Source: Berberis thunbergii (Eukaryota; Streptophyta; Magnoliopsida; Ranunculales; Berberidaceae). From it: a stretch of 64,000 bases of DNA. The position numbers and the translations under genes are program-made. The notes beneath the pieces are model-generated. The model did not search any database, had not been told where the DNA came from, and saw nothing but the letters and a program-made list of their open reading frames with translations. Below, one piece after another: positions 4,819 through 53,698 of this stretch. The first letter of the stretch is position 1. Each line of letters begins with the position of its first letter. The DNA lies in NCBI GenBank assembly GCA_003290165.1, contig QNQO01001160.1, positions 1 through 64,000 of the forward strand, given 5' to 3'.

Positions 4819-5211
4819 GACAATTTTCCTTAAACATTTTGCATGATAAAGTGCTTGAATGTCAACAAGAGTTGGAGAAAAAAAAAAAATCTGTGGTGCT
4901 CCACATCTCTTGCATCTCCATCCATTCTATTTTTTTGCCTTCTCCTTTCCCTCCCCCCTTCCCTGAATTCATGTTTTCTCATTTCTGTTCTCCTCAATCA
5001 TCTCTATCTGCCTTGACTCTTTAATGAAGTTATGATGTTTCAGATTTTTTGATACGTATTGGAGTGCTTTGTTATACATACCGCGTGCATTCCATACATT
5101 GATTTATATACATACACGCAGAAAGTTTGGGAGGTGTCATGGATGAGAAACGCGCAAATGAGACTCATCTACTAACCTGTTATCAGGAATATGCACTACA
5201 CCAAAAACCCC

Positions 5212-5636
5212 CTTTAGCAACGGTTCTGTACCGTGGGCGTAACCCATTGCCACGGCTAAGAGCCGTTGGCTACAGAGGCGTCGCGAAATTTGTTGCAACG
5301 GCCATAAACCGTTGCTAAGCCGTGGCAAAAATAGCCACGGTTCTAAGCCGTGACAAGGTGTAGATATTAGCAACGGTTTTAAACCGTGGCTAAGAAGGTA
5401 GCAACGGTTTTAAACCGTGGCTAAGAAGGTAGCAACGGTTTTTAGCCGTGGCAAGATTAGCCACGGTTTCAAGCCGTGATAACGTGTGGACAATAGCAAC
5501 GGTTCTAAACCGTGCCTAATTAATTAGCAACGGTTTTAAACCGTGGCTAACTTTAGCCACGGTTTTAAGCCGTGGCAATGTAGCCACGGTTTTGAGCCGT
5601 TGTGATAGTTAGCCACGGTTTAAAACCGCAGCAAAT
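5212..5636. repeat. Left subterminal repeat array of the CACTA element
   Basis: More than a dozen copies of a 10-12 bp unit 'caacggtt.taaaccgt' or 'gccacggtt' in both orientations, often paired as short palindromes such as TAGCCACGGTTTTAAGCCGT. The array ends in a T-run at 5637-5659. Such subterminal arrays bind the TNPA-type protein in characterised CACTA elements; that role here is inferred. Confidence 0.85.
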
Positions 5637-5659
5637 TTTTTTTTTTTTTTTTTTTTTCC

Positions 5660-6092
5660 TATCAAATGACTTTGAGTCATTGAGTCAAAATTGTTTTAGA
5701 AGTATTTTTGAAGTTAAACAACATATAATAAAGAGAAGATTATGTTTTTAATGTGTTAATTTTACTTTGAGAATACATGCACATTTGAGAATAATCAATA
5801 AGTGGAATTAATACGACCAGAATTACTAAAGAAGAAGACCAACAAATTGAGATGATCATCCAAATAGGCAATTAGGTTTCACTTAAGTAAACAATAATTG
5901 GAAAGATAATACAATCTGAGATAGACTAATAATTAGAAAGCAAACAATTGGAGCTGTAAATCTGTGATTGGTAACTGTCAAATTCCCAAAGAGAACTCAA
6001 ATTGAAGATGTGGAATTCAGATCCATTTCCAGCTAACAGCTAAACCAATTAACCATGTTACAACAACAAAAAAAAAAAAAAAAAAAACTCAC
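5660..6092. other. CACTA interior, no gene seen
   Basis: AT-rich sequence between the left subterminal array and the first captured fragment. It ends in an A-run (6070-6087). No exon-like frame was recognised. Confidence 0.45.
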
Positions 6093-6201
6093 GCCATGGA
6101 GGTGGACTGGTGATGCAATAAGCAATGTTAGGCAGCTGATCCTTGGCTGGATGCGGCTGCAACTCATCCTGCTTGGGTGCTGGAGCTGCTCCTCCTGCCA
6201 T
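6093..6201 (-). pseudogene. Captured exon 1 of a nucleobase-ascorbate transporter (NAT)
   Basis: Read on the minus strand from ATG at 6201 the frame gives about 36 residues including PAPKQDELQPHPAKDQLPNI and then YCITSPPPW. This is the N-terminus I know from plant NAT-family proteins (MAGG... KDQLP ... YCI.SPPPWPE). The exon ends at 6093 with a GT donor at 6092-6091, exactly where plant NAT genes split the codon after PPPW. After the donor the sequence becomes a poly-T/A tract, so no further NAT exons follow. Upstream 5'-UTR-like sequence may continue to about 6300. Only a fragment of the donor gene was captured; no transport function is expected. Confidence 0.7.
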
Positions 6202-6397
6202 GATTTTTCCTCTTCTACAAAGATTCATATGTACAACTCTGTCTCCTTCATCAGAGACGGCTTCAGAATATTCAGCAGCTCAGATTACGCAGCATTCTAG
6301 ATGCAAGAGAATTCCTTTAAGCTTAAAACATCATCGTTGCTGATGAGGTATAATTCCTATTGTTTAAGACAGTGAAACTTGTACATTTTGAGTTTTA

Positions 6398-7566
6398 TCA
6401 GGTTGGTTCACGAGGACGAGCATACCAGATTGAACTTAGGGTCCGAAGGCGCTGGAAGTAGTCCCCCAAGGCAAGCAAGCCTCTGGCTGCCTGCCGGGTA
6501 GTAAGGATTTTAGCCATCTGCTGCAAGGTCATATGGCGAAGGCTGTCTGCCTGTTCAGCATCAATAACCAATAAGAATCAGCCAAATTACAACCAAAGGG
6601 GGTTTAAGAAGATAATGGCTGAAAGAAGGGAGTTGCTAGTTCAAAGGGAAATTTCTATATGCAAAAACCTGACTATTTGATCCTCTTATTACTGCTTGAA
6701 TATGATGAGCCACCAATCAGTATTTTCAATAGTTAATCAGACAATCTGACATAACACAACAACATTTCACCAACAGATTTACAAAAGAGTTCCTAAATAG
6801 TTTTCAACAACCAAAGATGGCCTAGTACATTAGAAAGTACCCTTTCGGAGTTCAACAGTAAAAATATTACTCATGCTTGTACCAAAACTGTCCCCCACCC
6901 TTGTCATATTATTTAGCCATACCTCTTGTGAATTGAACTACAGACCAAGTACAAGTTCAATAAAATGACAGTTTGAATGCTTTACATTCAAGTGTTAACA
7001 TTTTTGAAGTCTTGAGAAAAAGCGAATTGATCACGAAGCCGTAAGTTAAGTAAATCTAAGTCAATTATTCTGTTAAATTGGGCTTTGTCTGCAAGTATTG
7101 AGCTAAATTTTTCTTTTGTAAATAGCATAACATTCTTAGTATCTTGCATTTTCTCAGATGATTATGGTCCATGAAGAAAAACTAAACAGAGAATAAATAA
7201 ATAATCAGGTGTTAGGAAGTACTATTTCTAGCTCATACTACTCTAAAACCTTCAAGTTGAAAGTCTTGCAAGGTCCTGACATTTTTTCAATTCAACATTA
7301 TCTTTCTGCAATATTAATAGATAAACTTATCATGAGATTGCAGAATTCGTATGCCTAATCATAACAATTGTTCCCTATTATTGAGAATATCAGATTAATT
7401 TGTTAGCAAGTACTTCTTTAAAAGATTTAAGAAAATGCTCCAGAATATATTTTATGGTGCTATATCAATTAGTTGTTATCACAATAAGCAACGTGCCCTT
7501 ATAATATGTACGTACCTGGTTCACAAATCTTAAAAGATCATTCAACTTCTCCATTGCAGTCCCCAT
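6398..7566 (-). pseudogene. Captured two last exons of a TGA-type bZIP transcription factor
   Basis: Two minus-strand exons. The first (7516-7566, 17 codons, acceptor 'ttgcag', donor 'cag|gtacgt') reads MGTAMEKLNDLLRFVNQ. The second (6398-6550, acceptor 'tgaacag') reads ADSLRHMTLQQMAKILTTRQ, continues AARGLLALGDYFQRLR, and ends at TGA 6400-6398 after WYARPRE. This is the C-terminal part of the DOG1 domain of TGA/HBP-1b factors, whose conserved end is 'QMHRILTTRQAARALLA..DYF.RLRALSSLW.ARPRE'. The roughly 965-bp intron (6551-7515) shows nothing else. The bZIP DNA-binding part is absent. The frame is still open and ends at its natural stop. Confidence 0.8.
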
Positions 7567-7579
7567 CTGCAACATGTAG

Positions 7580-7930
7580 AGTCACATTCCAACCAGCTGC
7601 CAATGCACACGCGGCACCCGCGCGTTTCTGCGACAAATCCCGAAATGACACCGTAGTGCCTAAATCAACCGGCGAACACACGCGCCAACCACATGACGCC
7701 GCATCTCAGCATGTCAACGCTGCGACAAAACAACTGCAATGTATCCCAGCAGCAACAAAGCCGCGCATCAGCAGCAGCAGAAAATAGCACCGCAGCCGTC
7801 GCATCAACACGCAGCGCAGCAACCGCGCATCAGCAACAGCAGAACAGCAACAGCGGATCAGCAGCAGCAGCAGATCAGCAGAACAGCAACAGCAGATCAG
7901 CAGAGAGCTCTGCCTAAACCACACAGCATC
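7580..7930. repeat. CAG-rich low-complexity segment inside the CACTA element
   Basis: GC-rich, dense in CAGCAG and 'cagcaacagcagaacagcaacagc' type runs, unlike the AT-rich surroundings. Open frames on both strands (Gln/Ser-rich on +, Cys/Leu-rich on -) follow from the composition and have no family resemblance. It lies between the TGA and chaperonin fragments and may be another captured or filler piece of unknown source. Confidence 0.55.
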
Positions 7931-8142
7931 TGCCCCTGCGAGCAGCAGAGAGACTCGCAGAATATCGCCATTTCCCGGACTGCGAAAGCTGCCATAATCC
8001 CCAAACCTCGCAGCCACAAAGCTGAAAAACTAGATTGATCCAACAGAAAGACAACTACTGAACCATTAAACACCAAACCATAACCCAACATATGACAAAC
8101 CGTAAATATACAACATCGCAAGTAGGAGAAGACGGTACAAAC

Positions 8143-8365
8143 CTGCTCATCTTTCCTCAATGGCCTTCTTGTCACCAGCCCCATGAAGAATGACATTGTC
8201 ATCCTTGGAGATAGTTACCTGCAAATTCTGTCGCATGTTATGGCCTATTCTGCAGTGAAGTTAGGTCAACATGGAGAAGAAAAAAAAACTAGTTTCAAGA
8301 GTATAGCTTATCTTTTTGCAAGTGCCAAGCATATCTAGTTCCACCTTGTCAAGGTTCATACTAAC
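8143..8365 (-). pseudogene. Captured exons of mitochondrial chaperonin 60 (HSP60/CPN60)
   Basis: Two minus-strand exons. 8312-8365 (acceptor 'tttgcag') encodes VSMNLDKVELDMLGTCKK, and 8143-8218 (acceptor 'tttgcag', donor 'cag|gtttgt') encodes VTISKDDNVILHGAGDKKAI followed by EER. In plant mitochondrial CPN60 the same stretch is contiguous: '...LGMNLEKV.LDMLG.CKKVTVSKDDTVILDGAGDKK.IEERCEQI'. Two lesions are visible. The donor after the first exon reads AT instead of GT. In the second exon two bases are missing after the Arg codon, creating an immediate TGA where Cys-Glu-Gln would follow. It is a dead fragment. Confidence 0.82.
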
Positions 8366-8615
8366 CTGCAAAGAAAGGAGCCAAGTGTTGAGTCTTGCCA
8401 ACATAAAGATCTTTTTCCATACTAAACTTGGTTTTGTAAGACCCATTGTCTTAGTTTCTACTATAATAAATGTATGGTCATATTATGAATGCATAATATA
8501 AATCCTTGGTCAAGTACAGAAAAGCATGAGCAGCATAAATTACACTTTATTTAAAATACTCAAACAGCAACATAAAACTCCAAGCAAAAAAAAAAAAAAA
8601 AAAGCTAGAACTAAC

Positions 8616-8774
8616 CTCTCCAGCATAATGGCAAACACGGAAAGCCCCACTCCTTTCTCCTTTAAAGCAGAGATTAGTGCTTAGATGCTGCTTAAGCTTA
8701 TTGGCAAAGGTCAAATCAGTGGCTTTAGGAAAAGTTGATTCCTCATCCAATAGAGACAATAACCCCAATGGTTT
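8616..8774 (-). pseudogene. Captured exon of a class VIII myosin motor domain
   Basis: A 159-nt minus-strand exon (53 codons) with acceptor 'ctatgcag' and donor 'gag|gttagt'. It encodes KPLGLLSLLDEESTFPKATD, then LTFANKLKQHL, and ends GAFRVCHYAGE. The 'KPLGLL.LLDEE..FPK.TD..F..KL' and 'HYAGEV' blocks belong to the myosin motor; the exact wording is that of plant class VIII (ATM1-type) myosins. The reading frame is undamaged over the whole exon. Neighbouring myosin exons are not present. Confidence 0.85.
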
Positions 8775-9337
8775 CTGCATAGAAGAGGCGATGATCATTA
8801 CCAAAATGCAACAAGCTTAAAAACATATTACAGCCACAGAGAACAGCATTAAGAAAGAGATTTGTTAAAAGTTCCGAAGAGTTGTGCTGACGTTTCACCA
8901 TCAAAAACTTGAATACTATTTTCTCTCATAAAATCTATTAATCTAGGCGTGAGGCCAGGCGAGACACCTCAAGAGCCTTCATGTCGTCACAGTGGAGGTG
9001 GCCACCTAAGACTATATGAAGACATCATGAACATAAAATCTTTGAACTTTTTATGTTACATGCTAAAAACAAAGATTATATTCCCTAATGTCTTGTCAGC
9101 AACAAACCTCGCATAAAACAGCTGAAAACAAGGAAGCATTCATTTGCTTCTCTTTTATCTTTTATGTACGATTCCTTTGTTTCTACTCTTTATTTTGCCA
9201 TCTAAACATGAAACATTTCAATACAGACACCGTGTTTAGAGGTTCATCATATCAGCAAGTAATTGAAGAGTTGAGATGTGTTAGGAAAATATAAAGGGTC
9301 GGATGTTATGGTATAAGAATTTACACTAGCTGCCAAC

Positions 9338-9432
9338 CTGACACGACTATCATCACCAACATTTGGCAAACTAACAAGGGCATGAAGAGTTATCGGATAG
9401 GATAGTTGTCCATCATAAGCAATCAATTTAAC
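9338..9432 (-). pseudogene. Probable captured exon, gene not identified
   Basis: A 95-nt minus-strand block bounded by 'aaattttag' (acceptor) and 'cag|gttggc' (donor) reads VKLIAYDGQLSYPITLHALV followed by SLPNVGDDSRVR without a stop. It looks protein-coding and properly spliced, but I do not recognise the family. It may belong to the same donor as the Cys-rich exon at 9780-9917 or to the myosin-side fragment. Between 8775 and 9337 I see only a possible further frame near 8840-8930 (minus) that I cannot assign. Confidence 0.4.
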
Positions 9433-9779
9433 CTAAAATTTATAGATGGTTTGCTAAACAAGAAAATAGATAGAATTTCAGGTGGAGAGAGCCTGGGAGA
9501 AGATTGTAGAACAGCATGAATACTTCAAAGAACGACTCAGGTGGTACTTCTAGTTAAGACTATAACAAAAATATCACAATAGATTAACATGTACATCCAG
9601 TCTGAATGATATCCTATACAACCTTCCAAGATTAACTTGTCAGACTATGAAAGCTCCTAAACACGTCACTGGCAGAAGCATGGAAAAGCATTGGTTCCAG
9701 ACACCCAGTAAAAACACATCACTCTTGAACATACATGTGAGAAAAGAAAAGAAAAAAATGTTTTTTGTGGATTTCATAC

Positions 9780-9917
9780 CTTTCCTGCCCCTGAACAGTT
9801 GGAACATCTTTCAGTTCTAGGCGGGGACAGTGGTTGACCTCCATCATTGATGGTTGCCACTGGCTCAACACGAATGAGAGATCCTGTGCTTGAACACCGA
9901 GCACAAGCACAGATATC
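9780..9917 (-). pseudogene. Captured exon of a Cys-rich protein
   Basis: A 138-nt minus-strand exon (46 codons) with acceptor 'atgttgcag' and donor 'aag|gtatga'. It starts DICACARCSSTGSLIRVEPV and ends ERCSNCSGAGK. The two C-x2-C pairs followed by a small residue and Gly resemble halves of zinc-binding CxxCxGxG modules of DnaJ-like or related plant proteins, but I cannot name the gene. The frame is open. From 9918 to 10597 the + and - strands show no other exon I can support. Confidence 0.55.
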
Positions 9918-10597
9918 CTGCAACATAAAAATAGATCAATCAGAATATCATTACATTGTACAACCAAGTTTAACTCTTCCGCATGAGAACATAAAAACAA
10001 GCACCAAATACACAATGAATATCATTACAAGCACCAAATACACAATGGCCAAACTCATCGTCTCCAAACTATACAATCAGTGTAGTAAAATGTTAATTTT
10101 AAATTGGCAATGTTAACATTTTACTAGACCGCGCCACTCGTTAATGCATTACAATTACATATATGAAAACTTTTGACCAAACATATATCCATACAAATAA
10201 AAGCAAAAGCAATAGCAACTACAAATCAAGCATAACTTGTCAGTTAACAAAATTCCAGATTGAAAACCAAAAATATTACAAAAAATCCATGCTGCAGTTT
10301 CAGTTTGAGATCATAACCACATTATACGTATTTCCTTGTAATTTGCATGTTGATGATTCGTAAGAGTTTCTCCAATAATCACAATTATGCTATTCTAAAT
10401 AGAATAAGTTCACTTGAATTGAATACAACAGAATCAGGGGAAAAGACAGCTAGTAGTATGCATTGGTCAAGAAATAAAAAGCAGACCGAAACAGATTAGA
10501 ACTGGTTATGTAGACAAAATAAAAGTCACTTTCAGCTGGTTTGAAATGATGACGAAGTAACCAAAGTGAAAGATATGCAAACTGGTGAATTTCTTAC

Positions 10598-10752
10598 CTG
10601 AAACTCTTGTATTTGCTTTTGTTGTTCAGCCTGCAACCTACCAGCTACACTCAACAACTCCCCAACTGTAGACTCAATGCGTTCGTTGATCACTTCTGCA
10701 AGTGCCCTACCCAAGAAAAAGGCATCCAAAACACTCTTGCCATCTCTTTCCC
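10598..10752 (-). pseudogene. Captured exon resembling a plant chloroplast protein of the At4g13200 type
   Basis: A 155-nt minus-strand exon with acceptor 'ttgtggcag' and donor 'cag|gtaaga'. It reads RDGKSVLDAFFLGRALAEVI, then NERIESTVGELLSVAGRLQA and EQQKQIQEFQ. From memory this matches the conserved core of an uncharacterised plant chloroplast-targeted family (At4g13200-like: 'LDAFFLGKALAE..NERIESTVGE'). The assignment is from recall and not checked. The helical, Glu/Gln-rich text suggests a coiled-coil region. The splice phase does not fit the upstream exon at 10893-11119, so the two probably come from different genes or one frame is damaged. Confidence 0.5.
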
Positions 10753-10892
10753 CTGCCACAAGAAACATATTTAATAAAGAGCACTCTTGAATACAAGAAC
10801 AACATATCTGCTGTGATATATTTGGTTTCCCACAGAACCAAATGACATGTAATATGCATAACAATTGAAGGTAAAGAATGTAAATTCAATAC

Positions 10893-11757
10893 CTTCTACA
10901 AGCAGAATTCAAAACTACTTTGGGCAAGCTCCCAAGCCCTTCAGTGAGTTTGATTCCTTGAGCAGTCTTGGTGTTCTTCACTGATGACAAAACTGCTTCA
11001 CTGGTGGACTGGATGATAACCTCCTGGGTAGTCAGGGTGCTATATCCGGTTTTGTTTAAAGAATCAAGGACCGCATCAACTATGTCTAAGCCCTTAATTG
11101 CTGCAAGGTACACCGCATTCTGAAGAGGAGAAAGCAAAATGATTAACCCACAAAGATACAAGGGACAAGCAACCTCAACCCTTGGTATACTGTGACGTCT
11201 GCACAGCGTAGGGAAAACTACAATTCAAACTCATCTCATTTACAAATTATTCTCACACAACGAAAACATGATTTTTGCTATTCAATCAAACTCAAACATG
11301 AGTAATAGTATATTAGTATGGTGCCAACTTCTACTGCCTATCTTAATTTAAGAATGATCAACTGCTTAGAAACCATCTGTAGAGACTGAATGTTTATCGT
11401 CATGTAAACAATCCAGCCTCAAAGACAAGATCATAATATCATGATTTATTCTAGTCCATAGTAGAAACCATCGAATTTAGGACAAGATTACAATATCATG
11501 ATTTATTCTAGTACATATTTCATAAGACACGCTTCAGTATATAGTCCTCTCTCTTATCTTCACTTTTAACCCATATTCATAAACAGAATGTTAAGAACTG
11601 ACCTACTTTGTTCTTGTTTCTGCAGAATTTGGGGTTACAAGCAATGCAAGATCAGCACCAATGTCAGATGTGGATAAATCTCTGTATATTGTGGAACCAA
11701 ATCTTGATATGAGCTGCCTGTTTCAGTTCCAGAATCTGACAAAGACTGAGATTATGT
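10893..11757 (-). pseudogene. Captured exons of an unidentified gene
   Basis: The clear exon is 10893-11119 on the minus strand (acceptor 'cctcttcag', donor 'gaag|gtattg'), reading NAVYLAAIKGLDIVDAVLDS, then LNKTGYSTLTTQEVIIQSTS and a further 35 or so residues. Upstream, 11606-11757 (minus) contains a coding-like block with a frame break near 11680, ending GADLALLVTPNSAETRTK; its donor appears to have lost a G ('aagtaggtc'). The two pieces read as neighbouring exons of one gene. I do not recognise the family. From 11120 to 11605 the sequence looks like the intervening intron. Confidence 0.4.
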
Positions 11758-12550
11758 AATACCAAATAAGTTCAGAAGCAGTAATTCATAACCAAAAGAT
11801 GTAGACAGAGAAACTATGGAATGTATTAGAATTGTTGTAATATGAACCAGTTGAGAGGAAAGTTACAAGTAGGCTATTCGAGTGGCCATACACTCCCAAG
11901 AGCAAATGCTCTGATGTATACTTCTATTACAATCAATGAATGCCTACTTTCCTTCCTAAACTATTATTTATAGCAACATACTACACTGACAGTAAGATAA
12001 CAGAGTACTCTGCAGTAATTCATAACCAAAAGATGTAGACAGAAAAAGTGGACAATATATCATTCTTTTCTTAAGCTGCCATATTGGTGTTTCAAGGTAC
12101 CAAAAAAATCATACACGTAAATACCCCTACAAAAGCCAAAAACATAGAAAAAATACCAACAAGAAGAAGAACCTAATCTCAGTCTTTAATAATTAATAAG
12201 AAACCAAAGGAATATTAACCTCGGAATACCATGCTAAAAAATTTGGAAACATGATAGCAATGGATTATTGTCAATAAAGTCGGTCCACGAGGTACTACGT
12301 GCTTACATTCGACCTGACTTTTATATTAAACTGATTTGGAGAAATTCCATTCTTTCCCATGCATTTTAGTTGTTTTATAAATGCACTCAGTGGTCGGGGT
12401 CAGCCTAACCCCTCCTCTGGAGTGTTTAGTTAAATAACATTGAACCCTCCCTAAGAAAACTTGATATAATCATGCAGTAGAATTTCACAACAAAATAGAA
12501 TTTCAACTACCAATGATTGCTTCTTTAATTTAGAATTTTGAAGTCCTGAC
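11758..12550. other. CACTA interior, no gene seen
   Basis: AT-rich. A 25-30 bp segment ('cagtaattcataaccaaaagatgtagacagaaa') occurs twice, near 11778 and 12013, as a short direct repeat. No exon-like frame was found on either strand. Confidence 0.4.
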
Positions 12551-12989
12551 CTCAATTGTCTTCTCTATGAGATTTTTCCTCCGTTGATCATTTGATACAT
12601 GGCAAACCAATCCCAAAACTTCAATCCCACGAGCTCTAAGCTTCTCAGCAGCTTCATCTACATTTTCTGAAGAAAAAAAAAATCCAAAAGAACCCCAAAT
12701 CAATCCACCTCTCATTCATTCCTCAAAAAAACATATAAAGATCAAATTTTGATGCAAATCCATACAAAAGCTTGAATTTTGAGAGAATCCCACGAACCTG
12801 TTTGCGAGATGAGATCACAACAGCAGCTCCTTCCAAGCCAAGTCTCTCTGCGATGCCGAAACCGATCCCCTGTGTTGATGTTGTAACTATGGCTACCTTC
12901 CCTTGAAATCTCTTCAAACCCCCAACCGCTTCGCTTTCTCTCTCTCTCTCTCTCCTCTCCAGAAAAATCATCAATCGACTGTGACACAT
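12551..12989 (-). pseudogene. Captured exons 1-2 of a SDR4-like short-chain dehydrogenase/reductase
   Basis: Minus strand. Exon 1 (about 12989 to 12798, donor 'cag|gttcgt') encodes RFQGKVAIVTTSTQGIGFGI and then AERLGLEGAAVVISSRKQ. This is the Rossmann-fold start with the cofactor motif TxxxGxGxG in the form TSTQGIGFG. Exon 2 (12666-12551, acceptor 'tttcttcag', donor 'gag|gtcagg') encodes NVDEAAEKLRARGIEVLGLV and CHVSNDQRRKNLIEKTIE. Together this is the N-terminus of plant DHRS4/SDR4-type (tropinone-reductase-like) proteins. One A is missing at the start of exon 2 (four A where five are needed for K-N-V), so spliced reading hits TAG at once. The catalytic Tyr-x3-Lys exon is absent. The GA-rich 5' leader and flank (12930-13150, pyrimidine-rich on +) seem to have come along. 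Confidence 0.85.
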
Positions 12990-13277
12990 GAAGCGAACAA
13001 CTCACACCCTTCTCAAACTTTCTTCTTTTTCTTCTTCTTCTTCTATCGTCCTTCTTCTTCTCTCCTTCTCGTCCTCTCCTTCTTCCGTCCTTCTTCCTTC
13101 TTCTTCTCTGCTTCTCGTCCTCTCCTTCTTCCGTCCTTCTCCTTCCTTCAGTAGTGCTTGTGAAGAGGAGGCGTAGAGAGAGTGTTAATATCTTTTCCCC
13201 AAATTTTTTCGCCAGAGCGCGAAAATGAAACCTTCAAAGCGCGAAAGTATTTTGGCCAAAGCGCGAAAGTGGTTGTT

Positions 13278-13649
13278 TTTTAGCTACGGTTTTAAACCGT
13301 TGGCAGGTTTAGCCACGGTTTTTAGCCGTTGCTAGATCTAGCCACGGTTTAAAACCGTTGCTAAAAAAAAATTTTGCAACGGTTTTAAGCCGTTGCTACA
13401 CCTAGCCACGGTTTATAACCGTTGCTAAAGTTTTTTTTGCAACGGTTTGGAACCGTTGCGAATAATACCCACGGTGTTGAGCCGTTGCTACTAATAGCCA
13501 CGGTTTTTAACCGTGTCAAATATACCAACGGTTCTAAGCCGTGGCTATGTTTTTTTTACCCACGGTTTTAAGCCGTTGGTAATTATAGCTACGGTTTGTA
13601 GCCGTGGCAAATAGCCCAACGGTTTAGAACCGTGGCCAGCTCGGCGTGG
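13278..13649. repeat. Right subterminal repeat array of the CACTA element
   Basis: Mirror of the left array: repeated 'gccacggttt.aaaccgttgcta' units, mostly as short palindromes, on to the terminal inverted repeat. Just inside it, 13190-13270 contains three copies of 'agcgcgaaa'. No coding sequence. Confidence 0.85.
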
Positions 13650-16233
13650 CTAAAGGGGGTTTTTGGTGTAGTGATGGTGGCATTCTCTCCAGGGGCGTTT
13701 GGTTAAGTGATGACCCTCTCCACTACGCAGTCCCCAGTCTTCTATTGCAAATCACTCTCTTCTCCATCATGGAACGCTTCCTCTACTTCATTCTAAGGCC
13801 CCTTGGACAACCATCCGTCACTGCTCAAATACTTGTAAGTAACTAGATTAATGGTATTCCGAATGATCACCCATCTATATAACAATCAATGTAGGGAGAT
13901 ATAGTACTTATTTTCAAACGATTTATGTGTTTTGATGGTACTACGGTACTGATATTGTTTCAATTGGTTGCCAGGGTGGTGTGATATTAGGCCCTACGGT
14001 ACTTGGGCGCAACACAAAGTACACAAACATATTTTTCCCACCTAAATCCCTAGTAGTACTTGACCCGATTGCACGCTTTAGTTTCATCATCATCCAAATG
14101 CTCATGGGAGTAAAGCTGGATCCATCTGCACTGAAGAAGACTGGAAAAATGCCATTTGCCATAGGAATATTAGGTTTCTGTTTCCCTATGTTTGTGGGTA
14201 TAATTATGCACATGCTCATACGCTCAGTGACAGAGATGGATCATGAAATCAACATTTCAATTAGCATGGTAATAGGCATACAGTCTATGTCCGCTTTCCC
14301 TGTTATCACTAGCATCTTGAGTGACCTAAAAATGCTCAACTCAGAGCTTGGTCGTGTTGCAAGTTCTTCATGTATGGTTTCTGATTTCTGCAGTTCCATA
14401 ATCATGTTCAGTTTTCAGATTCTGAACCTTTTACAAAATAAAGATCCAATGCCGAATATGATAGGTTATACACTGTCAGCAATTTTGGTGGTGTTTTTTA
14501 TTGTGTTCATCGTCCGACCAGCTGCATTATGGGTGAACAGCAAGACTCCACAAGGACAACCAGTGAAGGAGGTTCACATGTTTGGTGTTGTTCTAGCTCT
14601 CTTGGTATGTTCACTCGCCAGTGAGGTTCTTGGCATAAGCTATGCCTTGGGACCTTACATATTTGGATTGGCTTTACCAGATGGACCGCCTTTGGGGACT
14701 ACCTTAGACAACAGGATCGGTAGCTTAGTTACAGTATTGTTCATACCAATGCTTTTCACTAGTTGTGGCGTGAAGACAGATTTATTCTCCGTAATGTCAT
14801 ATCAGCATGTGTGGATCACTGAGATAATCTTTGTCAGCTGTTTTATGGCGAAAACAATATCCATTATGTTGCTTCTTCTCTACTACAAGACACCATTCCG
14901 TGATGCACTCACCCTTGCGCTTGTTATGAACTCCAGAGGATTGGTTGAAGTTGCCGTTTATGATTCCTTCTTGGGGCACAAGGTACGTAATAATAACCCG
15001 TATCCTTTGATAGTTGTTTTTACCACTAATACATAAATGACAAAGGTACTGTAATATTTGCATTTGCAGTTAATGAGCCATGGTATCTTTTCGATTTTGG
15101 TCGTGAGTTCATTGATTCAAACATTCTTTATTTCAAACATTGTGAGAAACCTTTACGACCCATCCAGGCGATACTTGCCTCAAAGAAGAAGAACTATTCA
15201 ACATAATGGATGCAACGAGTTTGGGATACTAGCTTGTGTTCACAACCAAGACAATGTGCCTACCATCATCAGAATTCTAGAAGCTTCAAACCCTGCAAAA
15301 CTTAGCCCCATCCATGTCTGTGTTCTCTACCTAGTCAAGCTTACAGGTCGCGTTGCCTCTGTACTAATTGCCCACAACCGACACGAAATAGCTTCTTCTA
15401 GTACTAAAAATTGTCAGTCAGAACCCATTGTAAAGGCATTCAGATACTACGAGCAAAAGCATGACTTTGTCTCTGTAGGCTCTTTTACGAGCATCTCTCC
15501 TTCTGATTCAATGCACGAAGATGTCTGTTCTCTTGCTCTAGAAAATAGATCAATTCTTATTATTATGCCCTTCCATAGGCAATGGCTAGCTGGAGGAAAC
15601 ATACACTCATCGGCTCCAATAAGGAACTTGAACTACAATGTACTTGCAAAGGCACCTTGCTCGGTGGGGATCCTAGTTGACCGAAGGTCCATATGCTCTT
15701 CTGGACTTTCGTTACAAGGAGTAGGCATGCTCAATATAGCCACTCTATTCATCGGAGGATTTGATGATCAAGAAGCATTATCATATGGTTCAAGAATGGT
15801 AAAGCAACGCAATGTAAAACTTACAGTGTTTCGATTTAATTCAAGGGGTGCTGCCCGCTGTTATGCAAAGATGAGATATATGGACAATGAAATTATGAAC
15901 GAGTTTAGGTCCGATAACTTTTATAATGATAGGATAATATATAAGGAAGAAGAAGTGAGTGATGGACAAGGACTAGTTAAGGCGATTCGATCAATAGAGA
16001 ATGCTTACGATCTTGTGATGGTTGGGAGACGACATATGGAGTGTCCTCTCATGGCAGGACTTACAGAATGGACTGAGTTCCCAGAGCTGGGGATAGTTGG
16101 GGACATTTTAGCTGCATCAGACCTTCATGTTGAGTCAGACTATCAAAGCATGCCTTCAGTCATGGTGGTGCAACAACAGGCTCGTGTATGGGAGGAAAAT
16201 GCCGTCCTGGATGTTAACAACATCAAATCTTAG

Positions 16234-17237: not shown

Positions 17238-17786
17238 ATGGCTTCCACAGGAAATCATACTGAAAAATCCTGTTATCCAGCTTATGCTGCTATTCTCTCC
17301 AGGGGTCTTTGATTTAAAGACAATCCACTTAACTACACAATCCCTAATCTTATGTTGCAAGTCACTCTCTTCTCCATTCTCGAACGCATCCTCCAGATTA
17401 TCCTAAAGCGTATTGGACAACCCTCCGTCATTCCTCAAGTTCTTGTAATCACATTTTTTTTCCTTAAAGATCGAAGACTAGACGAATAAAAAAGTGTGCA
17501 GGATTTTGTTGTGGTACTGATATCAGTTTTTTGTTTTTTGGTCAGGGTGGTGTGATACTAGGCCCAACAGTTCTTGGCCGCAGCTAAGAATTCAGAAAAT
17601 GGATTTTCCCACGTAGATCCCAAATAATACTTGACCCGTTTTCACACTTTAGTTTCATTTTCATCCAGCTGCTCATTGGATTAAGGATGGATCCAGCTGC
17701 AAAGTTTACGATAGGGAAAAATCCAATAATTCTTGGAATATTAAGTGTCTTTTTTCCTATATTTATGGGAGGATTGGTAGTTTTTT
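17238..17786 (+). pseudogene. Truncated CHX relic (exon 1 and start of exon 2)
   Basis: Exon 1 (17238-17444, 69 codons) begins MASTGNHTEKSCYPAYAAIL and follows the CHX plan, but a TGA replaces the conserved Trp codon of the 'SRG.W' segment. Exon 2 begins at 17546 after 'tttggtcag' and reads GGVILGPTVLGRS before a second stop: the codon after CGC AGC is TAA where the sister relic at 21734-22844 has TCA. The relic is cut at 17781-17786, where the duplication junction joins it to CHX promoter sequence. It cannot make a transporter. Confidence 0.85.
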
Positions 17787-18111
17787 GACAATTTTCCTTA
17801 AACATTTGGCATGATAAAGTGCTTGAATGTTAACAAGAGTTGGAGAAAAAAAAGAAAAAAAAATTTGTGGTGCTCCACATCTCTTGCATCTCCATCCATT
17901 CTATTCTCTTGCCTTCTCCTTTTCCTCCCCCTTCCCTGAATTCATGTTTTCTCATTTCTGTTCTCCTCAATCATCTCTATCTGCCTTGACTCCTTAATGA
18001 AGTTATGATGTTTCAGATTTTTTGATACATACTAGAGTGCTTTGTTATACATACCGCGTGCATTCCATACATTGATTTATATACATACACGCAGAAAGTT
18101 TGGGAGGTGTC

Positions 18112-20735
18112 ATGGATGAGAAGCGCGCAAATGAGACTCATCTACTAACCTGTTATCAGGAATATGGTGGCATTCTCTCCAGGGGTGTTTGGTTAAGTGA
18201 TGACCCTCTTCACTACGCAGTCCCCAGTCTTCTATTGCAAATCACTCTCTTCTCCATCATGGAACGCTTCCTCTACTTCATTCTAAGGCCCCTTGGACAA
18301 CCATCCGTCACTGCTCAGATACTTGTAAGTAACTAGATTAATGGTATTCCGAATGATCACCCTGGAAATATTCTATCTATATTACAATCAATGTATGGAG
18401 ATATAGTACTTATTTTCAAACGATTTATGTGTTTTGATGGTACTACGGTACTGATATTGTTTCAATTGGTTGCCAGGGTGGTGTGATATTAGGCCCTACG
18501 GTACTTGGGCGCAACACAAAGTACACAAACATATTTTTCCCACCTAAATCCCTAGTAGTACTTGATCCGATTGCACGCTTTAGTTTCATCATCATCCAAA
18601 TGCTCATGGGAGTAAAGCTGGATCCATCTGCATTGAAGAAGACTGGAAAAATGCCGTTTGCCATAGGAATATTAGGTTTCTGTTTCCCTATGTTTGTGGG
18701 TATAATTATGCACATGCTCATACGCTCAGTGACAGAGATGGATCATGAAATCAACATTTCAATTAGCATGGTAATAGGCATACAGTCTATGTCCGCTTTC
18801 CCTGTTATCACTAGCTTCCTGAGTGACCTAAAAATGCTCAACTCAGAGCTTGGTCGTGTTGCAAGTTCTTCATGTATGGTTTCTGATTTCTGCAGTTCCA
18901 TAATCATGTTCAGTTTTCATATTTTGAGCCTTTTACAAAAGAAAGATCCAATGCCGAATATGCTAGGTCATACACTGTCAGCAATTTTGGTGGTGTTTCT
19001 TATTGTGTTCATCGTCCGGCCAGCTGCATTATGGGTGAACAGCAAGACTCCACAAGGACAACCAGTGAAGGAGGTTCACATGTTTGGTATTGTTCTAGCT
19101 CTCTTGGTATGTTCACTCGTCAGTGAGGTTCTTGGCATAGGCTATGCCTTGGGACCTTACATATTTGGATTGGCTTTACCAGATGGACCGCCTTTGGGGA
19201 CTACCTTGGACAACAGGATCGGTAGCTTAGTTACGGTATTGTTCATACCAATGCTTTTCACTAGTTGTGGCGTGAAAACGGATTTATTCTCCGTAATGAC
19301 ATATCAGCATGTGTGGATCATTGAGATAATCTTTGTCAGCTGTTTTATGGCGAAAACAATATCCATTATGTTGCTTCTTCTCTACTACAAGACACCATTC
19401 CGTGATGCACTCACCCTTGCGCTTGTTATGAACTCCAGAGGATTGGTTGAAGTTGCCGTTTATGATTCCTTCTTGGGGCACAAGGTACGTAATAATAACC
19501 CGTATCCTTTGATAGTTGTTTTTACCACTAATACGTAAATGACAAAGGTACTGTAATATTTGCATTTGCAGTTAATGAGCCATGGTATCTTTTCAATTTT
19601 GGTCGTGAGTTCATTGATTCAAACATTCTTTATTTCAAACATTGTGAGAAACCTTTACGACCCATCCAGGCGATACTTGCCTCAAAGAAGAAGAACTATT
19701 CAACATAATGGATGCAACGAGTTTGGGATACTAGCTTGTGTTCACAACCAAGACAATGTGCCTACCATCATCAGAATCCTAGAAGCTTCAAATCCTACAA
19801 AACTTAGCCCCATCCACGTCTGCGTTCTCTACCTAGTCAAGCTTACAGGTCGCGTTGCCTCTGTACTAATTGCCCACAACCGACACGAAATAGCTTCTTC
19901 TAGTACTAAAAATTGTCAGTCAGAACCCATTGTAAAGGCATTCAGATACTACGAGCAAAAGCATGACTTTGTCTCTGTAGGCTCTTTTACGAGCATCTCT
20001 CCTTCTGATTCAATGCACGAAGATGTATGTTCTCTTGCTCTAGAAAATAGATCAATTCTTATTATTATGCCCTTCCATAGGCAATGGCTAGCTGGAGGAA
20101 ACATACACTCATCCGCTCCAATAAGGAACTTGAACTACAATGTACTTGCAAAGGCACCTTGCTCGGTGGGGATCCTAGTTGACCGGAGGTCCATATGCTC
20201 TTCTGGACTTTCGTTACAAGGAGTAGGCATGCTCAATATAGCCACTCTATTCATCGGAGGATTTGATGATCAAGAAGCATTATCATATGGTTCAAGAATG
20301 GTAAAGCAACGCAATGTAAAACTTACAGTGTTTCGATTTAATTCAAGGGGTGCTGCCCGCTGTTATGCAAAGATGAGATATATGGACAATGAAATTATGA
20401 ACGAGTTTAGGTCCGATAACTTTTATAACGATAGGATAATATATAAGGAAGAAGAAGTGAGTGATGGACAAGGACTAGTTAAGGCGATTCGATCAATAGA
20501 GAATGCTTACGATCTTGTGATGGTTGGGAGACGACATATGGAGTGTCCTCTCATGGCAGGACTTACAGAATGGACTGAGTTCCCAGAGCTGGGGATAGTT
20601 GGGGACATTTTAGCTGCATCAGACCTTCATGTTGAGTCAGACTATCAGAGCATGCCTTCAGTCATGGTGGTGCAACAACAGGCTCGTGTATGGGAGGAAA
20701 ATGTCGTCCTGGATGTTAACAACATCAAATCTTAG
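18112..20735 (+). CDS. CHX: CHX-family cation/H+ antiporter, intact, 794 aa
   Basis: Three exons: 18112-18324, 18477-19484 and 19572-20735 (TAG), all with GT-AG introns in phase 0, giving 71+336+387 residues. ATG 18112 is chosen because it is the first Met in the exon and lies just downstream of a TTG-initiated extension that has no support. The membrane half (about residues 30-430) has the Na+/H+ exchanger layout: GGVILGPTVLGR, the Ser/Thr-rich 'SMSAFPVITSFLSDLKMLNS' region, the conserved Asp in 'CMVSDFC', 'FTSCGVKTD', and 'MNSRGLVE' at the exon 2/3 boundary. The cytosolic half carries the CHX regulatory blocks 'APCSVGILVDRRS', 'GGFDDQEALSYG', 'DLVMVGRRH' and 'FPELGIVGDILA'. CHX proteins exchange K+ or other monovalent cations for H+ and regulate pH and ion homeostasis, many in pollen. 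Substrate and membrane cannot be told from sequence. The length is normal for the family. It is almost identical to the split copy at 5139-16233. The symbol is family-level. Confidence 0.93.
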
Positions 20736-49000: not shown

Positions 49001-49085
49001 AGCGACGATCGTAGGGGCGGTCTTGCTGAAGTTGCGTTGTGCTAGCTGCTGTGTGTACGAAGGTTAGGTGCGGAGCAATCTGATC

Positions 49086-50298
49086 ATGTCGGGAAACAAA
49101 GAGAGTGTTGTTGGAGGGTCCGTGGTCGAGGAGACTGGAAGAAAGACTAGTCGGACCAGCATGCTTGAGGATCATATGGCCAAGGTGGAGCTGACAGTGG
49201 GCGATCTCCAAGACAGCGTCGGGGAGATGGAACAGAAGGTTGAGTCCTTCAATGGGACGTTGGCTAGCGTCACTATGGATATCGAGCAACTCGATAGCCG
49301 CGTCCATGACCTTGAGCTTGGCACTGTGGAAACCAAGGACAAGACTCAACTTCTCGTCAACCAAGTTGCGGATGCCATGCGCAACGAGATGGGCCAGCTC
49401 AAGGACACACTGATGGGGCAGCTCCAAGCCATCCGGGAGCAGGTTGAGTCCTTGCAATCGGACGTCAACCTATGCAAGGCGGCGGTGGCAGGTAGTGCTA
49501 CTGTACGAGAGGGACCAAGGATGAAGGTGCCCGAGCCGCTAAGGTACCATGGGAAGAGCGATGCTAAGGAGCTCGACAACTTCCTATGGAGTGTTGAAAA
49601 ATATTTCAACGCAATGCGCTTGGACGACGATGAGTCCAAGATCACCACCGTCACCATGTACTTGGGTGATGATGCCATCCTTTGGTGGAGGAGGCGTGAG
49701 TCGGATATCAAGAAGGGTATTTGCTCGCTCAAGACTTGGGACGAGTTCAAGGCGGATTTTAAGCGGCAATTCTATCCGGAGAATGCGGAGGAAGTTGCTA
49801 TGAAGAGGCTGCATGGGCTGAAGCATACGGGGTCGATCAAAGAGTATGTCAAGCAGTTCACTTCTTTTATGCTTGAAGTCTCGGACATGCCGGAGAAGAC
49901 AACTCATCTACTTCATGGATGGACTACAACGATGGGCTGAGCAAGAGTTAAAGAGACGCAATGTTCAATCACTTGCGGAGGCCATCGCAGTTGCCGAATC
50001 CTTGTTCGAATACAAGGCTGATTCGAAAAGCCACAAGGGCGGCAGCAAGAGTGGCAACGGTAACAAGGGAAAAGGTGGGGGAGCAAAACCCACCGAAAGA
50101 AACAGCAGTAGCAGCGGCGGCAAGCAGTTCGAGAGGAAGGACAAAGCCAAGCAGTCCTTTTCGGATAACAAGGTGAAAAACCGCGACTGCTTCTTGTGCG
50201 GAGGGCCGCACTGGGCTAGGGAATGCCCACAGCGACAGAAGCTTAATGCGATGATCGCTGGCAAGAGTGGATCGTTCGTGGGAATCATCGGGGGATGA
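49086..50298 (+). pseudogene. Chromovirus gag, frameshifted
   Basis: First frame from ATG 49086 (MSGNKESVVGG...) to TGA 49940: a coiled-coil-rich N-terminus followed by capsid (readable 'AILWWRRRESDIKKG' and 'FKADFKRQFYP'). Near 49895-49910 small indels shift the frame. The second frame continues with 'RWAEQELKRRNVQSLAEAI', a Lys/Gly/Ser-rich basic stretch, and a zinc knuckle C-x2-C-x3-H-x4-C at 50188-50226 (CFLCGGPHWAREC), ending at TGA 50298. Gag packages the element RNA. Confidence 0.85.
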
Positions 50299-53200
50299 GG
50301 CGCAAATGGGGACTTTGCGCTTGCTAAGCAGCGTCAAGGCTACGGTGGAGCAAAGCAACGTGGCTAAGGTAAGTATGCTGCCCCGTTCGAAGAAATCTGC
50401 TCTTATGTTTGTGGAAGCCAAGGTAAATGGCAAGGCTTCAAAGGCACTCGTCGACACGGGTGCAACGCACAACTTTGTTGCTTTAAATGAGGCAAATAGG
50501 CTGGGCGTGCAGTATACCAAGGAGCCAGGCACCTTGAAGACCATCAACACGGCACCGGTGCCTATCCATGGTATAGCACGAGGCGTCTCCCTTCATTTGG
50601 GCGAATGGAAGGGGATGGTGGACCTGACTGTCGTCACGATGGACGACTTCTCATTGGTGCTGGGCATGGAGTTCATGGATACGGTGAAGCCATGGACATT
50701 AGAAAGGGACGGGTCGATGACTATTGCAAAGGATCGAGAAGCATGCTCTGTCCCTGTCACTCGGGAGATCGTGGAGGCCAAGATGTTGTCAGCCATTCAA
50801 GTGAAGAAAGGCGTGCAAAAGGGGCAAGCAACATTTGTGGCCACATTGATCGAAGATGGGCCTCAACCCAGCGAGGTTCCGAAGGAGGTAGCTGCGGTTT
50901 TGAAAGAGTACAAAGATGTCATGCCCCCAGAGCTACCCAAGAGACTTCCTCCAAGAAGGGAAGTCGATCATATGATCGAGCTGGAGCCAGGGGCTAGGCC
51001 TCCAGCCATGGCGCCTTATCGGATGGCACCGCCAGAGTTGGAAGAGCTACGCAAGCAACTGAAGGAGCTGCTGGACGCGGGGTTCATTCGGCCATCCAAG
51101 GCTCCATTCGGTGCACCAGTATTGTTCCAACGCAAGCACGACGGGTCCTTGCGTATGTGCATCGATTACCGAGCACTTAACAAAGTAACCATTAAGAACA
51201 AGTATCCAATTCCTTTGGTTGCTGATCTTTTCGATAGGCTCGGTAAAGCCAGGTACTTTTCTAAACTAGATCTCTGATCGGGGTATTGGCAAGTGCGCAT
51301 AGCCAAAGGAGATGAGCCAAAGACGGACATGCGTCACTCGCTATGGGTCTTATGAATTCTTGGTGATGCCTTTTGGTCTCACCAATGCCCCGGCTACTTT
51401 CTGCACTTTAATGAACAGAATCTTTCAGCCTTTCTTGGATAAATTTGTAGTCGTCTATCTCGACGATATCGTCGTGTATAGCGACAACTTGGAAGAACAT
51501 GTGCATCACTTGCGACAGGTTTTCCAAGCATTGCGGGAGAGCGAGTTGTACGTGAAATTGGAGAAGTGCTCGTTCGCCCAAGACGAGGTGTCCTTCTTGG
51601 GGCACCACATCAAGGCTGGAAAGATCATGATGGAACGGGACAAAGTGCAGGCCATCAATGAATGGGAGCCACCCAAGAACGTTTCGGAGCTACGTTCTTT
51701 CCTTGGACTGGCCAATTATTATCGGAGATTCATTTTGAGCTACTCGGCGAGAGCAGCCCCACTGACCGACTTGCTGAAGAAGAAGGTGCAGTGGCATTGG
51801 AGTGATAAATGCCAAGAAGCGTTCAATGATTTGAAGAAGGCAGTCACCAAGGAACCTGTCTTGATCTTGCCCGATTATGCTAAGTCATTCGAACTTCACA
51901 CTGATGCATCAGACTTTGCCATCGGAGGGGTGCTTATGCAAGAGGGGCATCCCATAGCCTATGAGTCTCGCAAGCTCAATGATACCGAGAGACGGTATCC
52001 GGTGCATGACAAGGAGATGACAGCCATCATTCATTGCTTGCGGACTTGGAGGCACTATTTGCTTGGGAGTCGGTTTACCATCATGACCGACAATGTGGCT
52101 ACGAGTTATTTTCAAAATCAGAAGAAGATCAGCCCCAAGCAAGCTCGGTGGCAAGATTTCTTAGCAGAGTTTGATTATGTCATGGAGTACAAGCCGGGCA
52201 AAGTTAATGTTGTTGCTGATGCTCTCAGCCGAAAGGCCATGCTCGCTAGCGCAAGCAGCGCCGCTAGCAACCTTCTTGATCGGATCAAGGAGGGGACTTC
52301 TCAAGACCCCTTGGCCAAGGGACTCATGCAGATGGCCAAGGAGGGGAAGACTCGACGGTTTTGGGTAGAGAATGGGGTGCTCTACACCGTCGGTCGTCGC
52401 ATTTATGTGCCTAAGTGGGATAATCTTAGGCGAGACATCATGAAGGAGTGTCACGACTCAATGTGGGCTGGCCATCCGGGGATGCAGCGGACATTGGCAC
52501 TCTTGGAGGTAGACTACTATTGGCCTCATATGCGGGATGATATAGAGGCCTATGTGAAGACTTGTCTTGTGTGCCAACAAGACAAGATAGAGCAACGTGT
52601 AGGACTATTGCAACCTTTGCCGATTCCAGAAAGGCCATGGGAGAGTGTCTCAATGGATTTCATATCAGCCTTGCCCAAGTCTGATGGGTATGGCTCTATT
52701 ATGGTCGTGGTCGATCGCTTTTCCAAGTATGGGACTTTCATACCTACCCCACGCGATTGCACGGCCGAGCAAGCAGCCAAGTTGTTCTTTCAGCATGTGG
52801 TGAAGTATTGGGGCTTGCCTCGGAGTATCATAAGTGATCGGGACCCAAGGTTCACAGCAAAATTCTGGACGGAGTTATTCAAGCTCTTGGGTTCGGGTCT
52901 ACACTTCTCAACAAGCTTTCACCCGCAAAGCGATGGGCAAACAGAGAGGGTGAATGCCTTGTTGGAGCTATACTTGAGGCACTTTGTGAGTGCCAACCAG
53001 AAGGATTGGGTCAAGTTGATGGATGTGGCTCAATTCTCATTCAACTTGCAGCGGTCCGAATCGACGCAACAAAGTCCGTTCGAGATCGTCATGGGCCAGC
53101 AGCCCTTGACTCCACAAGCCGTTGCGTCGGGCTACACGGGTAGCAGCCCCGCTGTGTACAAGCTTGCACGAGGATGGCATGAGCAGCTTGATATAAAGGT

Positions 53201-53698
53201 ACTAAAAGGCGTCTAAGAAGATGAAGAAGTGGGCAGACAAGCATAGACGGCCTCTCGAGTTCCAAGTGGGCGAGATGGTCATGGTCAAGTTGCTGCCACA
53301 ACAGTTCAAGGTCTTCCGCTTGGTGCACAAGGGACTAGTGCGGAAGTACGAGGGGCCATTTCCCGTCCTACGGAAGGTTGGGAGAATTTCTTACAAGCTT
53401 GAGTTGCCGCCCAAACTCAAGATTCATCCGGTGTTCCATGTGAGCATGCTCAAGCCCTACCATGGTGATAAAGAAGATCCAACGAGGGGCGAGTCACATC
53501 GGGCACCAACCGCGGTCATGACTTCCTTTGATCGAAAGCATCGAGGCAAAGAGGCTCATCCGACGGAGGGGTGTGCCAAGCTATAATGAGTATCTCATTC
53601 GATGGAAGGGACTACCGAACAGTGAGGCCTCATGGGAAAAAGAAGGTGACCTATGGCAATTCCAGGGCAAGATCGCGGAGTTCGAGGCACAGTCTTGA
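50299..53698 (+). pseudogene. Chromovirus pol: protease, RT, RNase H, integrase, chromodomain; several breaks
   Basis: An aspartic protease motif [11 protein letters not shown] lies near 50440-50475. Reverse transcriptase begins about 50930. A TGA at 51275-51277 replaces the Arg codon after 'FSKLDL' (a CGA-to-TGA type change). An extra base near 51325 shifts the frame. The frame 51312-53216 then carries the RT active site '[12 protein letters not shown]', RNase H ('[14 protein letters not shown]'), the integrase zinc finger ([10 protein letters not shown]...C-x2-C) and core ('ISDRDPRFT', '[12 protein letters not shown]'). A frame break at about 53195-53220 precedes the integrase C-terminal 'KWADKHRRPLEFQVGE' and 'HPVFHVSMLKPY'. 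A further break near 53540-53580 precedes a chromodomain ('YLIRWKGLPNSEASWE') ending at TGA 53698. Confidence 0.88.

Follow-up and report, generated by a model that had tools for sequence, protein, structure and literature searches.

How does a transposable element in which no transposase is found come to carry exons of many unrelated host genes in a single orientation, and does such a load amount to a gene? The question is raised by a 64-kb stretch of Berberis thunbergii DNA (contig QNQO01001160.1, positions 1-64,000, forward strand; hereafter the window, whose numbering is used throughout), in which a complete non-autonomous CACTA element occupies positions 5194-13673 (8480 bp). With high probability, the element is a Pack-CACTA that was loaded with fragments of resident genes and recently amplified, one copy disrupting the first exon of a CHX cation/H+ exchanger gene. 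The borders and the insertion site are as follows.

5191-5193: left target site duplication (TSD), ATG; flank reading and empty-site alignment
5194-5218, plus strand: left terminal inverted repeat (TIR), 25 bp; end comparison
5214-5631: left subterminal array, 12 palindromic ACGG..CCGT units; motif count
13280-13635: right subterminal array, 12 palindromic units; motif count
13649-13673, minus strand: right TIR; end comparison
13674-13676: right TSD, ATG; flank reading and empty-site alignment
5139-5193 and 13677-13834, plus strand: interrupted exon 1 of the CHX gene; read from the frame, ends approximate

The TIRs are identical at 25/25 bases and at 28/29 over 29 bp. The palindromic units, of the type GCAACGGTTTTAAACCGTGGC, number 12 at each element end and none in the interior, and 24 of the 25 ACGG-N4-10-CCGT sites in the window fall within the two ends. 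The left end also has a much more stable predicted fold than shuffled sequence (z -12.8). When the flanks are joined without the element, they give an unbroken 96.5% alignment to the next CHX copy (17781-18902), a paralogue 4.5 kb away in a tandem array that represents the empty site, and the frame stays open through the junction; the insertion is therefore real and CHX exon 1 is broken. The cargo runs antisense to the interrupted gene. These results bear out the perfect 25-bp CACTA termini, the ATG duplication and the subterminal arrays described in the first-pass annotation. Its statement that a transposase is missing also holds for what was scanned: Pfam found none in 20 open stretches and 10 exon-derived peptides (one of these with a typing error), nor in 6 peptides from longer copies, not every frame being covered. 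An Rfam search gave no match. The CACTA TIRs, the 3-bp TSD and the subterminal repeats assign the element to the CACTA class, and the host gene coding DNA, with no transposase among the peptides scanned, assigns it to the Pack-CACTA (Pack-TYPE) elements.

Read along the minus strand, the interior consists of the following exons.

12798-13000, minus strand: SDR4-type dehydrogenase exon 1 with a portion of its leader; Pfam and PDB relatives, splice scoring
12551-12666, minus strand: SDR4-type dehydrogenase exon 2; PDB relatives, splice scoring
10893-11119, minus strand: open exon without known relative, AG/GT borders; frame and splice borders
10598-10752, minus strand: DUF6825 (At4g13200-like) exon; Pfam 1.6e-23
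9204-10030, minus strand: fragment of ORANGE, a DnaJ-type Cys-rich plastid protein; tblastn 1e-19 and DNA alignment to the resident gene
8616-8774, minus strand: myosin head exon; Pfam PF00063, 8.2e-12
8312-8365, minus strand: CPN60 exon, expected 3' GT absent; PDB relatives, splice scoring
8143-8218, minus strand: CPN60 exon with in-frame TGA; PDB 1e-6
7516-7566, minus strand: TGA bZIP penultimate exon; PDB TGA3 3e-25 with the two TGA exons joined
6398-6550, minus strand: TGA bZIP last coding exon, including the stop; same joined PDB match
6093-6201, minus strand: first coding exon of a NAT6/7-like nucleobase-ascorbate transporter (NAT); 95% over 38 aa, E 8.9e-14 in a search among 5.8 billion sequences

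Seven donors are thus named in the window copy (SDR4-type dehydrogenase, DUF6825, ORANGE, myosin, CPN60, TGA bZIP and NAT), all on the minus strand, which supports the earlier proposal of a Pack-CACTA with many co-oriented donors. The two SDR4 exons, when joined, match DHRS4 in PDB (4e-19); exon 1 alone (39 aa) has no PDB match at 0.001, and exon 2 carries a 1-nt deletion at its start in the window copy alone among 11 copies. For exon 10893-11119, Pfam and protein searches gave no relative among proteins of ~135-1358 aa. The intron separating the two TGA exons measures ~965 bp, and a GC-rich, CAG-repeat stretch lies within the element at 7610-8050.

The splice sites are mostly kept, as had been claimed: acceptors read AG in 9/9 tested cases and donors GT in 9/10. 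Scored with a plant matrix, eight of the nine GT donors and all nine acceptors exceed the 93rd percentile among minus-strand GT/AG sites, two weaker candidate exons having been removed before the count. One of these, near 11.6 kb, has no relatives and weak splice scores (80.6th and 93.5th percentile). The other, an open stretch near 9.3 kb (86.0th and 97.2nd percentile), also has no relatives and lies inside the ORANGE fragment by DNA alignment; it is probably the second unassigned exon of the first-pass annotation, which falls away as a separate exon, and the Cys-rich exon of the same annotation stands and is now named ORANGE. A 170-bit match in Craigia, considered as an annotated copy of the chimera, proved to be a DUF6825 gene in which one exon is repeated.

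In the case of ORANGE, the cargo can be set against its donor. A protein search of the genome places resident ORANGE genes on contigs C218 and C2125 and paralogues on C635 and C8588. Positions 9204-10030 are 98% identical to the C218 gene (L051) over 831 aligned positions, introns included, versus 87% for the paralogue, and the captured exon 9780-9917 comes with its flanking introns. The window copy differs from the resident gene at 12 of 825 aligned bases, introns included; the 11 element copies show 12-14 differences from the C218 gene and 13-15 from that on C2125 (~824 bases), and on average ~3 of 948 among themselves. Furthermore, 13 columns (eight substitutions, a 1-base insertion and four gap columns) separate all 11 copies from both resident genes, and a 1-nt insertion shifts the ORANGE exon frame in 11/11 copies. 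From the introns, the shared columns and the distances to the donor and among copies, it follows that the capture was of genomic DNA, that it is recent, and that it preceded the amplification. The donor-locus search suggested earlier thus succeeded for ORANGE; NAT genes exist in the plant's own genome as well, the exon for residues 1-38 was absent from the matches listed, and that donor is not pinned. A different ORANGE fragment (residues ~192-243, with stops) occurs on C5267, C43, C467 and C8006 and is perhaps another capture.

The locus had been treated as one element; instead, it belongs to a high-copy family. An interior query finds cargo parts at 96-100% on 19 other contigs (best 20 of 5391 candidates), and the left 307 bp give 40 full-length matches, window copy included (best 40 of 2646 candidates). 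All seven of the other left-end loci that were cut out carry the NAT exon and the region of the last TGA exon. The captured ORANGE exon is present at 115 of the 128 matches listed, window copy included (best 127 of 287 candidates), each place being assigned from the query range and the stop in common, as read from the list; the 13 excluded rows belong to resident genes or further exons of theirs, or to another fragment. Of ten copies fetched whole, 10/10 are complete, 8.7-10.2 kb long, with at most one mismatch in the 19 bp of either terminus and perfect 3-bp TSDs, all different. Among the window copy and nine of the fetched copies (45 pairs), interior identity is 99.36-99.95%, with differences of 0.05-0.65%; the tenth, C1, was left out of this count since its left cargo differs; in the right cargo that C1 shares with the window copy, identity is 99.4%. 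The amplification of the loaded element is recent.

Meanwhile, the copies are not uniform in cargo. Two blocks that the window copy lacks occur in six of the ten fetched copies: X1, of 677 bp and without assigned content, and X2, of ~800 bp with a minus-strand fructokinase exon (Pfam 1e-20; PDB 1e-17). The other four have kept part of X2. In the window copy, the losses left two junctions.

8449-8452: X1 deletion junction with 4-bp microhomology, X1 being present in 6/10 fetched copies; copy alignment
10030-10046: X2 deletion junction with 15-bp repeated filler; copy alignment

Such microhomology and filler are as expected of abortive gap repair, the capture mechanism (Rubin and Levy) cited in the passages compared from PMC8978399. 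At the left, C1 contains ~1.9 kb with minus-strand TAF6 exons (PDB 3e-28; Pfam TAF 3.5e-9) where TGA-NAT stands elsewhere. The TAF6 block has 40 matches at 99-100%, C1 included (best 40 of 739 candidates), and this recurrence makes it the mark of a second large subtype. C181 carries TGA-NAT together with a remnant, X3, of the sequence adjoining TAF6 in C1, and an unrooted tree groups C181 with C1 (support 0.90). These two variants are a direct sign of stepwise or modular cargo exchange, which could have run in either direction. A reading of C1 as a fusion with another CACTA family was dropped, as its left end belongs to the same family. The length and cargo variants support the earlier idea of stepwise capture, and fructokinase and TAF6 bring the named donors across the family to nine, in one orientation. 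Apparent intermediates are thus found in one genome: with and without fructokinase, with TAF6 or TGA-NAT, and with a remnant linking the two left cargoes. With a donor at 98% and many near-identical copies, the capture order, the junctions and the orientation become readable from a single genome.

A history of the following kind would account for the family. The TIRs and subterminal palindromes would be used by a CACTA transposase supplied in trans by another element. The middle was assembled from pieces of genomic DNA, introns included, that derive from nine or more resident genes in the family as a whole; they would have been captured by gap repair or by the joining of neighbouring elements, and the latter leaves no trace in the window copy, inside which no internal palindromic end unit occurs. 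The loaded element then amplified recently to many copies, which lose cargo through internal deletions with microhomology or filler and whose left cargo is either TGA-NAT or TAF6. One of the copies landed in CHX exon 1 and broke that gene, and an orientation filter may have acted on the captured fragments.

Pack-MULEs and Helitrons likewise collect gene fragments, and the hallmarks of a Pack-MULE are a 9-bp TSD and MULE TIRs. Here, the TSD is 3 bp, the termini are those of CACTA and subterminal palindromes are present; the probability of another element type is negligible, the ends and TSDs already refuting it without a separate scan for MULE or Helitron hallmarks. Very unlikely is the reading of the cargo as a young chimeric gene, with the minus strand expressed as one spliced mRNA that starts at the captured SDR leader and yields a protein. 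In its favour, exon 1 of SDR sits at the 5' end and the stop-bearing TGA exon close to the 3' end, and the splice sites are mostly kept. Ahead of the leader, the following feature is present.

13213-13270, minus strand: three TTTCGCGC (E2F-like) sites, 22 bp apart, immediately interior to the right array, ahead of the SDR leader; motif reading

Three such sites occur in 10/11 copies and two in C1716; they presumably resemble E2F sites, and the triple site could be a minus-strand promoter. Virtual splicing gives an ATG-started frame of 193 aa, from SDR exons 1 and 2 and exon 10893-11119, in 8/11 copies. The SDR pair is in phase because both exons come from one gene, so only the join to exon 10893-11119 is newly in phase, for which the chance is 1 in 3. 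However, the 193-aa frame ends at DUF6825 by frameshift or out of phase, and C3316, one of the eight copies, has lost the acceptor AG of SDR exon 2. Three copies (C572, C6742 and that of the window) have this frame interrupted, and their longest virtual-splice ATG frame is 87 aa (in the window copy, in the TGA part). The ORANGE frameshift, the CPN60 stop and the lost CPN60 splice site are common to 11/11 copies. Nor is constraint detectable in the exons: variable sites among 10 copies amount to 13/1448 in exons versus 82/6156 elsewhere (Fisher p 0.24, with low power), with four changes at first, three at second and five at third codon positions (of 445, 444 and 444 sites). The sequences thus offer no indication that a protein product is the reason for keeping the cargo. 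Several points nevertheless count against the account of a loaded, recently amplified Pack-CACTA. The 193-aa frame is open in most copies and the constraint test has little power; only ten other copies were fetched whole, and the count of 115 derives from one exon read off a list; ORANGE is the sole donor aligned at the DNA level, the other donors resting on protein likeness; and no autonomous partner was identified. In addition, the ORANGE genes on C218 and C2125 differ at 6/827 positions, so the assembly may hold both haplotypes and the independent insertions may be fewer.

The single orientation calls for its own explanation. All nine named family donors lie on one strand, for which the chance is 0.4% (two-sided, ignoring the selection of the case for this feature). 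The minus strand is T-rich in 14/14 500-bp windows inside the element versus 50% of 110 outside, and the T-skew is almost nil in X1 (0.02) and X2 (0.00); plant introns are T-rich. The only sign against a single orientation is a plus-strand match at 9838-10113 to a phospholipid-ATPase, below the Pfam threshold (E 8e-5, 22.7 bits, cut-off 29) and read as an artefact: it has no PDB relative up to E 10 and overlaps the filler junction 10030-10046. Coincidence as the source of the co-orientation is somewhat unlikely. We know of no feature of CACTA transposition that orients cargo, and the case was picked for its co-orientation, both of which favour chance. The strand count and the T-rich minus strand speak against it, although X1 and X2 are almost without skew, as does the soybean element Tgm-Express1, in which splicing joins the five fragments in one transcript according to the passages compared (PMC1947982). 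The nine co-oriented donors and the mostly kept splice sites are consistent with the transcription or orientation constraint proposed earlier. Tolerance or retention of fragments whose splice signals run along the element's own transcription direction stands about an even chance of being the cause; a direction bias of capture is unlikely. A general rule for multi-donor CACTAs, by which only fragments with splice signals along an element-borne promoter persist and a host-tolerated cassette train aids amplification, is less likely still. A possible candidate for the promoter is the triple TTTCGCGC site, which would act in dividing cells. If such a rule were true, the element would be a spliceable cassette train, and this property would have helped the family to reach about a hundred copies.

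Comparison with known systems places the Berberis family among related elements, as far as the passages compared from each source extend. Tgm-Express1, in the soybean wp allele, is a CACTA of 5.7 kb with fragments of five unrelated host genes; it likewise captured exons with introns and canonical GT/AG borders and is inserted in a gene (PMC1947982). Its fragments are exons of one pre-mRNA, which implies a single orientation, though the word is absent from the paper (PMC1947982). Compared with its five donors, the Berberis elements hold seven named donors (nine in the family) in 8.5-10.2 kb and form a high-copy family. Tgm-Express1 sits in an intron, its cDNAs starting at the F3H1 promoter (PMC1947982), whereas the Berberis cargo is antisense to CHX and interrupts an exon. 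In Arabidopsis, rice and maize, Pack-CACTAs similarly enclose host coding DNA, in many cases drawn from several loci, between CACTA TIRs flanked by a TSD, and those of rice and maize are mostly low copy (PMC8903248); by contrast, one Berberis cargo exon stands at 115 places among the matches listed. Capture through the joining of neighbouring insertions was proposed for them (PMC8903248), a model against which the Berberis element has no internal palindromic end unit left. The Tpn1 family of Ipomoea nil comprises 339 non-autonomous CACTA elements (mean 7.1 kb), likewise with interiors replaced by captured host sequence, chimeric transcripts and first-exon insertions; the passages compared do not mention a single multi-gene cargo maintained in over 100 copies (PMC5105172). 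Given the Tgm-Express1 precedent, a one-orientation multi-donor CACTA is not new in kind. Relative to these passages, the donor number, the copy number and the visible cargo exchange are new; none of them describes a Pack-CACTA of such copy number with exchanged cargo, which is no proof of absence in print.

Beyond the element, the window holds a tandem CHX-type exchanger array (13981-46286), in which two adjacent members are almost the same in sequence, the element having disrupted one of the pair, and a Ty3/gypsy-type retrotransposon coding region (49068-53586) with gag, RT, RNase H and integrase domains. Elsewhere in the genome, NAT residues ~63-131, at some places with 128-165 and 159-192, occur at dozens of dispersed places (e.g. 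C69:1908806-1909474), and many of these fragments share the same single TGA. They apparently form another high-copy family of gene fragments, separate from the window element, whose NAT part covers residues 1-38.

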